Shown here piece after piece: positions 16,403-22,674 of a stretch of DNA of 35,659 bases. Below the pieces are notes generated by a model, which was not told the DNA's origin, did not search any database, and was given only the letters and a program-made list of their open reading frames with translations. Numbering within the stretch: the stretch's first letter is position 1; each line of letters opens with the position of its first letter. The DNA lies in the NCBI RefSeq assembly GCF_000424445.1, contig NZ_AUJX01000042.1:1-35659 (forward strand). Direction: 5' to 3'. Source of the stretch: Oribacterium sp. NK2B42. Lineage in GTDB: Bacteria > Bacillota > Clostridia > Lachnospirales > Lachnospiraceae. A program made the position numbers and the translations under genes.

Positions 16403-17728
16403 ATGCTGAATAAAAAGACAAAAACTATACTTTTTCTTGACCTTATATCGCTTTTGATGAGTCACCTCGCGGCAAATTCCCGGGGCTTTGCCGACTTTTA
16501 CTCTCATAATATTTATCGCCATGTGAGCCTCACGGTAAGCAGTATCACCGGACTCCTGCCCTTTTCCCTGACTGAAGTCCTGCTGTATGCATTGATCATT
16601 TTTGTCATATGGGATTTTTCAAAGGCTCTGAGAGGTTCGATAAAGAATTTCAAAGAATACCGAAATTACACTTCAAAATGCCCTTCCGGGAGAAAATCCT
16701 CAGTACCCTGTAAGGTATTTAAACCATTGACCCTCTTCGCAGGTAACCTGTTTCTTATCGCATCCGTCCTTTTCATATTGTATGTATTTAACTGCGGAAT
16801 AAATTACAGACGCACCGGTTTTTCCATGGAAGCGAAAATCCCGGCCTACGATACCTCTTCTCAAAATGAGGCCAATGCAGACCTGGTGGAGCTTTGTGAA
16901 TATCTGGCAGAAAACATTAACCTTGCAGAAAAACAGCTTCTGGAAAGCTCGCAGCTGCCGGAGGGCGCATCATTGGCCTCCGGAATGTACGAAGGAAATG
17001 AACAACCGGCCACTCCGGATTCTGTATCCCAAAATCCTGATAATTCCAAAGGTGATCTGCCTCTGTCTCCTGTGAAGCTCTATAACGGCGCTTTCATCGG
17101 GGAAACCTCAGCCTCCGAAAGAGCCTCAGCCGCTTATCTTTGGGAAACCGGAAAGCTCGGGCAGGAAGCAATGGAGAGGCTTGGTGCACGTTTTTCAAGA
17201 CTGTCGGGACATTATCCCTTCCCGAAGCCCCTCATAAATTCATGGATACTGAGCATCCAGCAGGTAACTGGAGTCTACTCGCCTTTTACCATAGAGGCCA
17301 ACTACAACAGGGATATCCCATACTATGACATCCCATTCACTATCTGCCATGAATTATCTCATCTCAGGGGTTATATGCAGGAAGAAGAAGCTAACTTCAT
17401 CGCGGTTCTCGCCACCATCGGTTCCGGGGATATATATTTCAATTACTCAGGCTATGTTTCTGCCTGGGTATATGCCGGAAATGCCCTTGCCAAAACCGAT
17501 CGGGAAAGATTTTCAGAGCTTTACATGAAGATAAATCCCTACACCCGTCAGGACATGATGTACAACAACGAATTCTGGGATCGCTTCGACACAAAGGTCG
17601 CCGAGGTTCATGAAGAGATTAACGATGCCTACCTCAGGTACAATGGTCAGACTCAGGGCGTCCGGAGCTATGGTCATGTGGTGGATCTCATGCTGTCATA
17701 CTATGAGGAAAACGGAAGTCTGAAATAA
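16403..17728 (+). CDS. DUF3810 membrane protein with HExxH metalloprotease motif
   Basis: A 441-residue protein. Residues 1-130 hold about three membrane segments (TILFLDLISLLMSHLAANS, VLLYALIIFVIWDF, LTLFAGNLFLIASVLFILYV). The C-terminal part is predicted extracytoplasmic and ends with conserved features of DUF3810: FTIEANYNRDIPYYDIPFTI, then CHELSHLRGYMQEEEANF with H316-E317 and H320 forming a zincin HExxH site, and E328 in the EEEAN segment as likely third ligand. A Ser/Pro/Asn-rich loop (about 185-215) interrupts the middle. The family is uncharacterised; the motif suggests a membrane-bound metallopeptidase. It is divergent from a cell-wall-type M14 peptidase gene, which hints at envelope work but proves nothing. 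Confidence 0.85.
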   Translation: MLNKKTKTILFLDLISLLMSHLAANSRGFADFYSHNIYRHVSLTVSSITGLLPFSLTEVLLYALIIFVIWDFSKALRGSIKNFKEYRNYTSKCPSGRKSSVPCKVFKPLTLFAGNLFLIASVLFILYVFNCGINYRRTGFSMEAKIPAYDTSSQNEANADLVELCEYLAENINLAEKQLLESSQLPEGASLASGMYEGNEQPATPDSVSQNPDNSKGDLPLSPVKLYNGAFIGETSASERASAAYLWETGKLGQEAMERLGARFSRLSGHYPFPKPLINSWILSIQQVTGVYSPFTIEANYNRDIPYYDIPFTICHELSHLRGYMQEEEANFIAVLATIGSGDIYFNYSGYVSAWVYAGNALAKTDRERFSELYMKINPYTRQDMMYNNEFWDRFDTKVAEVHEEINDAYLRYNGQTQGVRSYGHVVDLMLSYYEENGSLK

Positions 17729-17741
17729 CAGTTCAGCCGGC

Positions 17742-18701: not shown

Positions 18702-18853
18702 GCCTATAATTCCTTTTTTCAGGTTTAAAACCCATTATCTTCAGCTGATGTGTAATTCCCAAGCTATAGTATCAGAACGCCGAAAAAATATCCACTTTAC
18801 CAATCGAAGGTTTTGATATACATTGTAGTTGAAACAGAAAAAAATAATTTTTA

Positions 18854-18953
18854 GCAGAGTAGGCAATCGAGCGTACAGTGCCCTTCGAACGGGGAGTTTG
18901 TCGGAGGGACGAAGCCAATGCATTGGCGCGGTTCGATAGCCGCATCCCGCTGC
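18854..18953 (+). ncRNA. Tetrahydrofolate (THF) riboswitch aptamer
   Basis: The sequence carries the landmarks of the THF riboswitch: 5' GAGTAG (18857-18862), P2 arm ATCGAGCG with partner GCGGTTCGAT near the 3' side, CAGTG, CGAA, CGAAGCC, and the 3' CCGCATCC. Outer stem P1 is GCAG (18854-18857) with CTGC (18950-18953). The order and spacing match known aptamers upstream of folT in Firmicutes. It stands about 50 bases before the start of the folate transporter gene, and the expression platform at 18963-18997 hides the ribosome site. Binding of reduced folate would be expected to lower translation of the transporter. Confidence 0.85.
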
Positions 18954-18962
18954 AGTGGAGTT

Positions 18963-18997
18963 TACCTCCTTTGTAGTCAGGGGCTGCAAAGGAGGTA
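18963..18997 (+). promoter_or_regulatory. Shine-Dalgarno-sequestering hairpin of the THF riboswitch
   Basis: TACCTCCTTTG (18963-18973) and CAAAGGAGGTA (18987-18997) form a perfect 11-bp stem with a 13-nt loop, burying the whole AAAGGAGG ribosome site of folT. A competing short pairing, GGAG (18957-18960) with CTCC (18966-18969), could open it. There is no T run, so control is at translation. Confidence 0.85.
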
Positions 18998-19002
18998 TTA
19001 TT

Positions 19003-19590
19003 ATGAAAAAATTCTCAACGAGAATTCTGGTAACCCTTTCAGTTCTTGTGGCTCTTCAGGTGATCCTGACAAGATTTTGTTCCTTCAATGCCTGGAACGT
19101 GAGCATAGGTTTCGGATTCACGGCACTTGTTATCGCCGGAATATTCTATGGACCCGCAGCCGGAGCCCTGGTGGGCGGTTTAGGTGATTTCATCGGTGCG
19201 GTGGCATTTCCGAGAGGTCCTTACTTTCCAGGCTTCACCTTGACCCAGATCCTTATGGGAGCTGTGTTCGGGCTTCTGCTCTATCAAAAGCATTCCTCAG
19301 AACCTTTATTTTCAAAAAGCTCTGCTTCAGATGCTTCGTCATTTTCCGGTAAGGCAGGTTCAGCTTCGCTGATCCTCCGTATAGTAACGGCAGTTCTCAT
19401 TAACCAGTTTGTTCTGAGCCTCCTTATGAACACCCTTTGGATATCCATCATATACGGCTCAAGCTTCACCGGCCTTTTGGCCACAAGGTCACTGCAGGCA
19501 GTCGTAACAGCTCCGGTACAGATGATAATAATCTATACCCTTACAAACGTTCTGAAGCGTGCAGATATCAGAAACGCACTGGCAATCTGA
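19003..19590 (+). CDS. folT: ECF transporter S component for folate
   Basis: A 195-residue membrane protein from the ATG at 19003, seven bases after AAAGGAGG. About six hydrophobic segments: RILVTLSVLVALQVILTRFC, then VSIGFGFTALVIAGIFYGPA, AGALVGGLGDFIGAVAFP, PGFTLTQILMGAVFGLLLY, VTAVLINQFVLSLLMNTLWI and TAPVQMIIIYTLTNVL. The LGDFIGAVAFPRGPYFPGFT block is characteristic of FolT-type substrate-binding subunits. It would bind folate and work with a shared EcfAA'T energy module, which is not in this window. A Ser-rich insertion (SSEPLFSKSSASDASSFSGK) lengthens one loop. The THF riboswitch upstream fixes the substrate well. folC, metF and metH follow on the same strand. Confidence 0.92.
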   Translation: MKKFSTRILVTLSVLVALQVILTRFCSFNAWNVSIGFGFTALVIAGIFYGPAAGALVGGLGDFIGAVAFPRGPYFPGFTLTQILMGAVFGLLLYQKHSSEPLFSKSSASDASSFSGKAGSASLILRIVTAVLINQFVLSLLMNTLWISIIYGSSFTGLLATRSLQAVVTAPVQMIIIYTLTNVLKRADIRNALAI

Positions 19591-19622: not shown

Positions 19623-19786
19623 TATAGTTGCGAAAAACATACGTTTACAGGGGAGCCAATTAGATCTGTATCTGTATGCTAGATATAAATGGCTAAAAGC
19701 ATGCGTTTATAGAGGAGCCGAATAGATTGACATCTGTATGTCAGATATAAACGGCGAAAAAACATGCGTTTATAGAGGAAATTTTT
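19623..19786 (+). repeat. Three 62-bp tandem leader hairpins upstream of folC
   Basis: Equivalent positions recur at exactly 62 bases (19632, 19694, 19756). In each copy a left arm (GTATAG, ATAAAT, ATAAAC) is followed by GC, an A-rich loop, GC or AC, a right arm GTTTAC or GTTTAT, and an AGAGGAG-like ribosome-site sequence. The third copy ends seven bases before the folC ATG and gives the real ribosome site. Its stem is ATAAAC (19747-19752), bulged G, GC, 10-nt loop, GC, GTTTAT (68-73). The terminal G-C pair of copy 1 is A-T in copies 2 and 3. Confidence 0.75.
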
Positions 19787-21310
19787 ATGGACTGGAATGA
19801 AGCGATAGCTCTTTTACATGGCGCGGATTGGAAGCATGCAAAGATTGGTCTTGATCGCATGAAGGCTCTCATGAACGCTTTGGGCAACCCTCAGCAAATG
19901 CTTAAATTCATACATATAGCAGGAACAAACGGAAAAGGCTCCGCCTGCTCCATGATAAGGTCCATCCTCACAGAGGCCGGTTTAAAAACCGGTCTTTACA
20001 TCTCTCCCCACCTCTTTAGTTTCAATGAACGGATCTCCGTAGACGGTACAGACATCTCCGATGATGACCTCATAAGGCTATCCGGAAGGATCAAAGCCGC
20101 TGTAACAGATCTCAATGAGGAACCCACTGATTTTGAGCTTATAACCGCCATGGCACTCTGCTATTTTCATGAAAAAGCCTGCGATTTCGTTGTTCTGGAG
20201 GTGGGCATGGGCGGCCGTCTGGATGCCACCAATATCATCGATGCCCCGGAGGTTGCCGCTATCATGAGCATCGGTCTTGACCACACAGAGGTCCTGGGGG
20301 GTACGGAAGAGCTGATAGCTCAGGAGAAAGCCGGCATCATAAAGAAAGGCTCCGATGTGGTTCTGCTGCATCAGAAGCCTTCAGTTATGGAGGTTATCTC
20401 TAAAATATTCCGAAATGTCAATTCAGATACCCAAGAACATGCAGCCATCACCGAGCCTTCATCACTCTCTATCCATTCCGGTACCTCAAGCTTTTTCAGT
20501 AAAGATGGCAATGTCATAGTCAGTGAGCCGTCTTCCCTTTCTGTTCATTCCGGTACTTCCGGCTTGTTCCGTAAAGGTGGCAATGTCATAGTCAGTGAGC
20601 CGTCTTCCCTTTCTGTTCATTCCGGTACTTCCGGCTTTTTCAGTATGGCAGGCAATATCATTATCACAGACCCCTCATCCCTTTCTGTTCATTCAAGGGA
20701 TCTGTCCGGTCAGGTTTTTGATTACAGGGATTTCAAAAACATCAGGCTGTGTCTCCTTGGTGCTTATCAAACTGATAATGCATCCGTAGTTCTGGAGATC
20801 GTTTCCTGCTTAAGAGCTCGTGGCTATAAAATTTCCGATGAAGCAGTCCGTGCAGGCCTCATTAAGGCAAAATGGCCCGGACGTTTTGAACTCCTCTCTT
20901 CCGATCCTGTATTTATCGTTGACGGTGCCCACAATCCGGACGGCGTCATGGCGCTTATTAATTCCATAAGAACTTTTCTGCCCGGTAAAAAAATCTGTTT
21001 CGTCATGGGTGTCATGAAGGATAAGGATTATCACGAGATGCTCCGTCTCATCACTCCTTTTGCGGAGAGCTTCGTGACAGAGCTCCCATACAGCACCCGT
21101 GGTCTTGATCCCAAGGTTCTGAAAAAGGAGATTTCGGTCTATTTTTCCGGTTCTGTGGATGTGGCGGATTCAGTCACAGAAGCTGCGGACAAGGCCTGGG
21201 CACATGCAAAAAAAACAAACACTCCCGTCATCTGCTTCGGTTCGCTGTATCAAGTGGCTGACATCAGGAGTCATATTCAGGAAAAGGACTCGATTGACTC
21301 ATTAACGTAA
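19787..21310 (+). CDS. folC: Folylpolyglutamate synthase / dihydrofolate synthase
   Basis: A 507-residue Mur-ligase-type enzyme that adds glutamate to folates (and possibly dihydropteroate) using ATP, so that imported folate is retained. Seen: P-loop AGTNGKGSACSMI (about 45-57), YISPHLFSFNERISVDG, GMGGRLDATNI, IGLDHTEVLG, EKAGIIKKG, and the C-terminal DGAHNPDGVMAL (from residue 379). The family is usually about 430 residues; the excess lies mainly in residues 223-303, an array of 24-residue repeats of the type EPSSLSVHSGTSGLFRKGGN between the ATPase core and the QVFDYRDF strand. The last codons fall in the first unit of the 53-bp array. It lies between folT and metF, with three repeated leader hairpins before it. 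Confidence 0.93.
   Translation: MDWNEAIALLHGADWKHAKIGLDRMKALMNALGNPQQMLKFIHIAGTNGKGSACSMIRSILTEAGLKTGLYISPHLFSFNERISVDGTDISDDDLIRLSGRIKAAVTDLNEEPTDFELITAMALCYFHEKACDFVVLEVGMGGRLDATNIIDAPEVAAIMSIGLDHTEVLGGTEELIAQEKAGIIKKGSDVVLLHQKPSVMEVISKIFRNVNSDTQEHAAITEPSSLSIHSGTSSFFSKDGNVIVSEPSSLSVHSGTSGLFRKGGNVIVSEPSSLSVHSGTSGFFSMAGNIIITDPSSLSVHSRDLSGQVFDYRDFKNIRLCLLGAYQTDNASVVLEIVSCLRARGYKISDEAVRAGLIKAKWPGRFELLSSDPVFIVDGAHNPDGVMALINSIRTFLPGKKICFVMGVMKDKDYHEMLRLITPFAESFVTELPYSTRGLDPKVLKKEISVYFSGSVDVADSVTEAADKAWAHAKKTNTPVICFGSLYQVADIRSHIQEKDSIDSLT
20453..20694 (+). repeat. 72-bp in-frame tandem repeats inside folC
   Basis: Units begin at 20453, 20525 and 20597 with a partial fourth at 20669. Each full unit is exactly 72 bp and encodes 24 residues beginning (E/D)PSSLS(V/I)HS. 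Units 2 and 3 are nearly identical over their first 48 bases; units 1 and 2 share the final GGCAATGTCATAGTCAGT. The period keeps the reading frame, so the protein gains a Ser/Gly-rich insertion. Confidence 0.92.
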
Positions 21311-21559
21311 AAACTATGTTTAAGTCAATGATTCACAACTACATGTTTGACTCATTTAGGATTATTTTAAATTGCGGTCAGACAGGAATTCAAAAAATGT
21401 TGACTCAGATAACGGAAACCAAAATTTGAGTCATTCAGGCTCCGTCCTATGTATGACTCAGATAACGGAAACCAGAACTTAAGTCATTCACACACAGATC
21501 ATCACATGACTCAGATGATGCCATATAGAAATTAAGTCAATCAAAAGGCAATAATCGTT
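21295..21559. repeat. 53-bp-spaced TGACTCA tandem array between folC and metF
   Basis: TGACTCA occurs at 21295, 21348, 21401, 21454 and 21507: five copies at exactly 53 bases. In four of the five units an inverted half-site (TAAGTCA or TGAGTCA) follows after exactly 19 bases; in the second unit it has decayed to GCGGTCA. Half-sites thus alternate in direction every 26-27 bases. Units 3 and 4 also share GATAACGGAAACCA. The first unit overlaps the last codons of folC. The array accounts for most of the 453-base gap before metF; nothing else was recognised there apart from a candidate promoter and a 5-bp hairpin (21728-21739). Confidence 0.85.
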
Positions 21560-21635
21560 CCTGCTATGTTACTCATGCCCCGGCTGAACTGTTACAATAA
21601 ATTATGCCTATAGCCTTTACTAAAATAAATATATT

Positions 21636-21763: not shown

Positions 21764-22674
21764 ATGAGAATCATCGATATATTAAGAAACGGCAAGGTAA
21801 CATTATCCTTTGAGGTATTTCCTCCTAAAAAGCTTGAAAATTTCGAGTCCGTACAGCAGGCAACCGAAGAGGTTGCCGCTCTGCACCCAAGCTTCATGTC
21901 CGTGACCTACGGTGCCGGCGGCGGAACCTCGGAGTTTACCCTAAATATCGCAAAGAATATCCGTGACAAGCACGGAGTGGAGGTTCTCCCGCATCTTACC
22001 TGCGTTTCCTCCACCAGAGAGCACGTTCAAAACATGCTTTCAAAATTCACGGAGTACGGTTTCGAGAACATCATGGCTCTCCGTGGTGATATCCCGAAGG
22101 ACGGAACTCCACATCATGACTATCATTACGCCTCTGAACTCATAGCCGACATCAAGGCTCACGGCGATTTCTGCATCGGCGGTGCCTGCTATCCGGAAGG
22201 CCATGTGGAGTGCGCCCACAAGGACGAAGACATTAAAAACCTGAAGAAAAAGGTGGATGCCGGCGTTGATTTCCTCACGACTCAGATGTTTTTTGACAAT
22301 GCTGAGTTCTTTAATTTCCTCTACAGACTTCGTGAAAACGACATCCGGGTGCCAGTGCTTGCCGGTATCATGCCCATTACCAATGCTAAACAGCTGGGCA
22401 GATCTGTTGCACTCTCCGGAACCTCTGTTCCTACAAGATTCAGAGAGATAGTCGACAAATTTGGCGACCATCCCGATGCCATGAAGCAGGAGAGATAGTC
22501 GACAAATTTGGCGACCATCCCGATGCCATGAAGCAGGCAGGTATCATTTACGCAACCGAGCAGATCATCGATCTCATCGCCAATGACGTAAGGCACATCC
22601 ACGTTTATTCCATGAATAAACCGGATATCGCTGAAGCGATACAGAATAATCTTTCGGAGATACTGAAGGTCTGA
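21764..22674 (+). pseudogene. metF: Methylenetetrahydrofolate reductase, frameshifted by a 47-bp duplication
   Basis: The start at ATG 21764 has AAAGGA nine bases upstream and gives MRIIDILRNGKVTLSFEVFP with the catalytic Glu of the FEVFPPK motif, then SVTYGAGGG, LTCVSSTREHVQNML, ENIMALRGDIP, ECAHKDEDI and FLTTQMFFDN, all typical of MetF, which reduces methylene-THF to methyl-THF for MetH. At 22443-22537 a 47-bp segment is tandemly repeated, so the frame ends early at the TAG 22496-22498 (after DAMKQER). Past the second copy the original frame resumes (AGIIYATEQIIDLIANDVRH to SEILKV) and stops at 22674. Without the extra copy the product is 287 residues, the usual size. The loss removes about 50 C-terminal residues. 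An upstream in-frame ATG at 21701 lacks a ribosome site. Confidence 0.88.
22443..22537 (+). repeat. Exact 47-bp tandem duplication in metF
   Basis: The segment starting GAGAGATAGTCGACAAATTT at 22443 is repeated without a single difference from 22490 to 22536, with one further shared G. The two copies abut directly. Because 47 is not a multiple of three, the reading frame of metF is broken. Confidence 0.95.

Follow-up and report, generated by a model that had tools for sequence, protein, structure and literature searches.

Helically phased arrays of inverted half-sites as probable targets of a nuclease family of the Lachnospiraceae

The element described here is a regular intergenic array of short inverted boxes, present between a folC-like and a metF-like open reading frame (ORF) in a stretch of 35,659 nucleotides from Oribacterium sp. 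NK2B42 (assembly GCF_000424445.1, contig NZ_AUJX01000042.1, positions 1 to 35,659 of the forward strand; the window hereafter). It is formed by TGACYYA half-sites that flip orientation every 26-27 bp. Such arrays are probably (a probability of about 0.6) double-stranded half-sites for a nuclease family of the Lachnospiraceae; gene and arrays together would resemble a REPtron, with DNA binding, dimerisation, autoregulation, cleavage and mobility as its likely properties. Handles beginning with G, C and L denote genomes, contigs and loci.

The nuclease gene and its adjoining arrays

Clustering of the ORFs located near arrays (rows L122, L132, L142, L189 and L223 left out) identified one family directly adjoining the array, at 5 loci from 5 genomes. 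The NK2B42 gene is located at C10:83505-84290, 3' of an array of 18 half-sites, and encodes 262 residues. Close homologs of P0001, the KHPX15 member of the family (at least 69%), were identified in G000, G012, G128 and G307 among 19 genomes searched, all four with arrays, and the remaining 14 genomes of the genus contain no arrays and only distant homologs (at most 38%) or none.

The loci were retrieved for best matches only, and for 48 of the 53 non-redundant genes the upstream sequence reached 250 bp or more. A motif-free test for alternating repeats identified arrays upstream in 18 of 48 loci, downstream in 2 of 50 and in 1 of 304 control pieces; a mismatch-tolerant triple test gave 21 of 48 upstream, 3 of 50 downstream, 2 of 336 genomic controls and none of 240 shuffles. 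By any of three tests, the third being a tandem-repeat test, an array was present upstream in 33 of 48 loci and downstream in 4 of 50. On its own, the tandem-repeat test was positive in 2 of 210 control pieces and upstream of 2 of 21 other ORFs of the same loci. Because most control pieces were taken from other phyla, the downstream flanks offer the fairer comparison. The arrays sit directly 5' of the start codon.

The half-sites differ between subfamilies: TGACYYA, GTGACCGC, GACACGCA, CCGACTA and others. Their similarity, with motifs read by eye, follows protein identity across 34 loci (Mantel r 0.285, 0 of 5000 permutations), also after removal of the TGACYYA group, which had been identified through its motif (r 0.307, 0 of 5000). 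The dispersed TGACYYA arrays match the resident gene in G000 and G012. Pairs of GTGACCGC were identified only in G172 among 7 genomes, at 4 places, one of them adjoining the gene; pairs of GACACGCA were identified in G251, beside the gene and elsewhere, unexpectedly in NK2B42 (12 and 12), and in none of five others. This second NK2B42 array family is located at C1:3403-3628, C1:242193, C1:257790-258015, C6:90625, C14:25570 and C24:27421, with a period of 63 where it is tandem. A candidate for its cognate gene is C19:22458-23246, a second nuclease nearest to two GACACGC-type proteins (47% and 45%), whose upstream region presents, by eye, only degenerate GACACTC-like boxes. Four of the six paralogs of G222 have, by eye, a motif of their own.

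The array periods at the 34 loci cluster at 5, 6, 7 or 8 DNA turns (multiples of 10.5 bp): 25 are of 51-54 bp, four of 63-64, three of 73-75, one of 83 and that of L236 of 46. Their phase against 10.5 bp gives R 0.87 for all 34; for the nine periods that fall beyond the range of 50-55 bp, R is 0.73 (p about 0.008). In these figures related loci are non-independent, periods come partly from a repeat finder and partly from half-site spacing, and one period was picked per locus among several (45, 53 and 90 in L289; 73 and 83 in L342; L338 and L350 ambiguous). Association, co-variation of motif and protein, and phasing together make the family protein the best candidate for the binder of the arrays.

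Proteins of this family have about 265 residues and comprise an N-terminal region of helix, three strands and helix, followed by a C-terminal PD-(D/E)XK-like nuclease domain. In the numbering of P0001, residues E159, D190, E205 and H206 do not vary in any of the 53 homologs; the first three supply the acidic residues characteristic of PD-(D/E)XK, the usual lysine not being among the residues assigned. The genes of G000 and KHPX15 are separated by 21 synonymous codon changes and 1 non-synonymous. Five members presented no Pfam or NCBIfam match of weight, and sequence searches of the PDB likewise returned no family; PDC-S68 of PADLOC matches the C-terminal halves of five members. An AlphaFold model of low confidence (mean pLDDT 66.6, 6 sequences) consists of a helix, three strands and a long helix, followed in the nuclease part by helix-strands-helix, and the VIA-align rows, for residues 1-109 only, are mostly helical hairpins. 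The N-terminal part may resemble the AP2/integrase-arm fold, a likeness that no search showed.

The gene was identified in 83 of 250 sampled Lachnospiraceae genomes (E ≤ 1e-10). A sample of the phylum gave 6 matches in 398 at E ≤ 1e-30, five within Lachnospiraceae (whose share of the 398 is not shown) and one to the nuclease domain only. Plasmids contributed 5 records, with the nuclease domain only, and phages 3, among them a full-length match at 31% in a 4.2-kb record without annotation. In L290-L296 the nuclease domain is C-terminal in long proteins of viral contigs; of these, L290 and L291 were scanned, and both carry AAA/SF1-type helicase domains.

Array geometry, distribution and the copy in the window

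In 69 arrays with 772 half-sites, the forward-to-reverse step is 26 in 246 of 361 cases and 27 in 108, and the reverse-to-forward step is 27 in 299 of 326; these counts come from 65 chosen loci, some of which are pieces of one array (e.g. L129 and L173). The alternation of about 2.5 helical turns reported for the window in an earlier note, made from its sequence alone, is thereby borne out. At the centre of the inner gap, 95% of 452 non-redundant half-sites have A or T. The two variable arm positions are identical in 97 and 101 of 184 non-redundant inner pairs, with 92.1 and 105.7 expected under independence, and the lack of compensation between arms, noted before in the window, thus holds on a larger set. 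Since the letters of the half-sites vary independently, RNA or cruciform stems are unlikely, and a DNA-binding protein, which the earlier note had favoured over RNA stems, would be the more plausible partner. In seven ortholog pairs pooled, half-sites differ at 15 of 595 positions and spacers at 87 of 1534 (p 0.002). The number of half-sites also differs between orthologous arrays: 18 vs 21, 12 vs 15 and 10 vs 12.

The NK2B42 genome (3.79 Mb, 95 contigs) contains 43 forward and 47 reverse matches to the triple TGACYYA/TRRGTCA/TGACYYA, with none in the reversed control; counted from the listed rows they form 18 places, the window included. The triple was identified in 3 of 17 genomes of the genus (G000, G010 and G012) and, in a scan of 299 genomes of the family, in G128 and G307 besides NK2B42. 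Among the matches listed in a scan of named genomes, where most single-match rows were taken as chance, the species with multi-match arrays include at least Oribacterium sp. KHPX15 and RUI013, together with further records labelled Lachnospiraceae, Butyrivibrio, Acetatifactor or Clostridiales, several from ruminant gut. Viral contigs gave 27 stretches with the triple, 26 of them single-match and taken as chance without a control. The array neighbours comprise shikimate kinase, chorismate synthase, glutamate synthase, precorrin-8X methylmutase, a MATE transporter and others, and the ten scanned in Pfam are mutually unrelated. Seven array loci are common to orthologous places of G000 and KHPX15. 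A contig of Cystobacterineae (L142:6330-6596) has TGACTTA-like boxes in tandem at 13/26-bp steps and was excluded as a different kind of repeat.

The window array extends from 21295 to 21539 and contains 5 forward and 4 clear reverse half-sites at a period of 53. Its five TGACTCA boxes were all found where the earlier note had placed them (21295, 21348, 21401, 21454 and 21507, at steps of exactly 53 bp), and the inverted partners that it described 19 bases after most boxes are clear in four of five units: TAAGTCA at 21321, 21480 and 21533, and TGAGTCA at 21427. Unit 2 has a degenerate partner, GCGGTCA, read from the window sequence at 21374..21380 of the minus strand. The pattern TGACTCA-N17-21-TRAGTCA has 5 matches in the window (4 places, one on both strands) against 0.00 expected from 100 shuffles; the array is genuine and far above chance. 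The flanking ORFs, with the gene names of that note, are both on the plus strand: folC-like at 19787..21310, whose last codons enter the array, and metF-like, 3' of the array, at 21764..22498 (beginning at TTG 21701 in the ORF list).

The window block is 97% identical to a part of the array of contig C8 and 84% identical to the C4 array. Similarity to the C8 copy starts at the GTCA of a degenerate half-site, GGAGTCA (21268..21274, minus strand), which is in register, lies inside the 3' end of the folC-like ORF and forms the left edge of the copied block. The right edge of the inserted block is a 16-base end, GTAACAGTTCAGCCGG (21580..21595, minus strand), of a miniature inverted-repeat transposable element (MITE). 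The window array is best read as one of the dispersed copies that lack a gene; a half-site marks its truncation on the left, and a MITE terminus closes it on the right. A second copied block, from L103 to L191 in KHPX15, is bounded by half-sites at both ends; ends of this kind are to some extent expected, as both arrays contain half-sites.

The MITE-like element also exists separately as a 61-bp hairpin with GTAACAGTTCAGCCGG ends and, by eye, 8-bp direct flanking repeats. Examples in the NK2B42 genome are L022:1501-1561 and L037:1501-1561, and the window contains ends at 21580-21595 and 17725-17740. With up to 3 mismatches these ends occur 98 times forward and 110 reverse in this genome, and 4 and 12 times in the control. 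Of 44 array rows, 6 have such an end on each side; in NK2B42 both ends were identified at 2 of 9 array loci and one end at 4 more. The MITE has carried some arrays. A MITE has two terminal inverted repeats, and in the window copy only the right end, 21580-21595, lies within the block.

The Rfam scan gave no match within the array; the only matches in the window were a group II intron piece and a tetrahydrofolate (THF) riboswitch at 18853-18954 (80.8 bits), directly before the ORF at 18955-19590. Three tandem repeats are also present: a 62-bp repeat of 2.3 copies (19633-19779) between that ORF and the folC-like one; a 72-bp repeat of 3.4 copies (20453-20694), with a 24-residue unit, within the folC-like ORF; and an exact 47-bp duplication (22443-22537) within the metF-like gene. 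As 47 is not divisible by three, the duplication may disrupt the metF-like frame close to its end, or it may be an assembly error.

Proposed mechanism and other explanations

Protein dimers would bind adjacent inverted half-sites, with successive dimers sharing one face of the helix. The gene's own upstream array may serve as both operator and reference site. Half-sites would be cut or nicked; subsequent repair or insertion would alter the arrays by whole units, and blocks bounded by half-sites could be copied to other intergenic places by the same steps. That the protein cuts at the arrays, and that the arrays spread by cutting, is proposed by analogy with REP/RAYT, with support from the invariance of the catalytic residues, the differing unit numbers of orthologous arrays and the copies bounded by half-sites.

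Several results weigh against this reading. G010 has arrays and the gene was not found in it, in a genome 77% complete. Fifteen of the 48 loci were negative in every upstream test; three of them (L088, L284 and L348) have arrays by eye and L235 has one downstream, the rest presenting none that is clear. Two other ORF clusters, of 8 and 5 loci, were also recovered near arrays, not directly beside them in the rows shown. Two of the six G222 paralogs have, by eye, no array. The Mantel test depends on motifs read by eye, and its values for the N-terminal (r 0.309) and C-terminal parts (r 0.243, 2 of 5000) are about equal, so that the recognition domain is not located by it. Foldseek gave no match at E ≤ 0.001 with the low-confidence model as query, no forward promoter-like site was identified between array and gene in NK2B42, and three of the seven ortholog pairs show the opposite trend in half-site and spacer conservation.

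The earlier note had proposed operators of a folate or methionine regulator, a reading to which the position of the NK2B42 array between folC-like and metF-like ORFs lends itself. The folC-metF synteny is retained in relatives, and the array is absent from the four gaps that could be read (G012, G010, G013 and G007), two of these relatives carrying such arrays elsewhere; G004 and G011 have none in the stretches retrieved, in which the gap itself was unreadable. Being absent from the gap of relatives and present near unrelated genes, the array contradicts this proposal, which is now scarcely tenable; the note had itself named such an outcome, in relatives and array neighbours, as counting against it. 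Its alternative, a selfish or structural repeat, is supported. A purely structural role, in which protein-bound arrays would be nucleoid or transcription-end elements without mobility, as proposed for REP (repetitive extragenic palindromic) sequences and BIMEs (bacterial interspersed mosaic elements), would suit the placement of 42 arrays distant from the gene whose neighbours were seen on both sides: tandem genes surround 31 of them, convergent genes 8 and divergent genes 3, and in the tandem pairs 24 are closer to the 3' end and 7 to the 5' end. The role is nevertheless improbable, as array places differ between close relatives, folC-metF among them, and fully conserved nuclease residues would be superfluous to it.

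An unlikely but more serious competitor is that the arrays are only an autoregulatory operator, the dispersed ones being passive recombination or MITE copies, or decoys, and the nuclease acting elsewhere, for example on foreign DNA. This agrees with arrays just 5' of the start codon, with the MITE ends around some of them, and with a nuclease domain common to long proteins given as defence candidates in PADLOC. It does not account for dispersed arrays that retain half-sites and spacing among unrelated spacers, for the seven array loci that G000 and KHPX15 share in orthologous positions, or for an array motif that tracks the resident gene. A guide-RNA array similar to TIGR (tandem interspaced guide RNA) or CRISPR, with the 19/20-base gaps as spacers of a transcribed array, is very improbable: the boxes are alternating inverted DNA half-sites with helical phasing, the gaps are often common to several units, the arms lack compensation, the array lacks an Rfam match, and five proteins of the family lack a Pfam Nop match.

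Relation to known systems and significance

The closest likeness of the proposed nuclease and half-site system is to REP sequences and their RAYT genes. In both, a chromosomal gene adjoins short cognate repeats that co-evolve with it, as presented for REP/RAYT in PMC2817692 and PMC3733652. Alternating orientation, dispersed and mostly extragenic position, and repeats cognate to a resident gene are likewise found here. PMC2817692 describes, for RAYT genes and BIMEs, a gene 3' end captured beside an array; here a 35-codon ORF (L243:6218-6325) repeats the 3' end of the nuclease gene on the far side of the array. The differences are that the nuclease family is non-homologous to RAYT and belongs to another superfamily, that REP sequences are hairpins with compensating arms whereas these are double-stranded half-sites with independent arms, and that the array spacing here follows multiples of the helical turn. 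For the HUH tyrosine transposase (Y1 type), 11 members gave no Pfam match, and the H-hydrophobic-H string occurs in only 5 of 53.

TIGR-Tas systems share short conserved boxes with fixed-length gaps near a nuclease gene and repeats that vary by locus; there, Nop-domain proteins act with RNAs of 36 nt, which arise by processing of edge and loop repeats (PMC12045711). They differ in that the boxes described here are inverted DNA half-sites and many arrays are distant from the gene. The Nop domain gave no Pfam match at E ≤ 1 in the five family proteins, and TasH appears among the fold-comparison rows at the level of a common arrangement, with a model of low confidence. PDC-S68 and related helicase-nuclease proteins have the C-terminal nuclease domain in common with the family, and differ in their full length of about 1240-1330 residues, the two scanned carrying helicase domains. 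The 61-bp MITE provides the right end of the window copy, but arrays with MITE ends on both sides are few (6 of 44 rows; 2 of 9 in NK2B42).

No description of such a system was found in the open-access literature searched, in the top results of long lists and with subscription papers mostly outside; within that literature, the statement of the earlier note that it knew of no described element of this form holds. The chances appear evenly balanced that these arrays and genes constitute an undescribed class of repeat and enzyme, extended through the Lachnospiraceae, in which a lattice of PD-(D/E)XK nuclease, helically phased on its own array, would drive expansion and spread of the cognate arrays, with several orthogonal systems of different half-sites on one chromosome.

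If true, this would be a second, independently evolved counterpart of RAYT/REP, using double-stranded half-sites and a nuclease domain of restriction type. It would provide a natural series of DNA-binding proteins paired with half-sites of 7-8 bp, an analogue of the two-site designer nucleases, and its motif-protein pairs would make a recognition rule directly testable. For the Lachnospiraceae, an abundant family of gut and rumen, it would offer an explanation of intergenic arrays that have so far had none.
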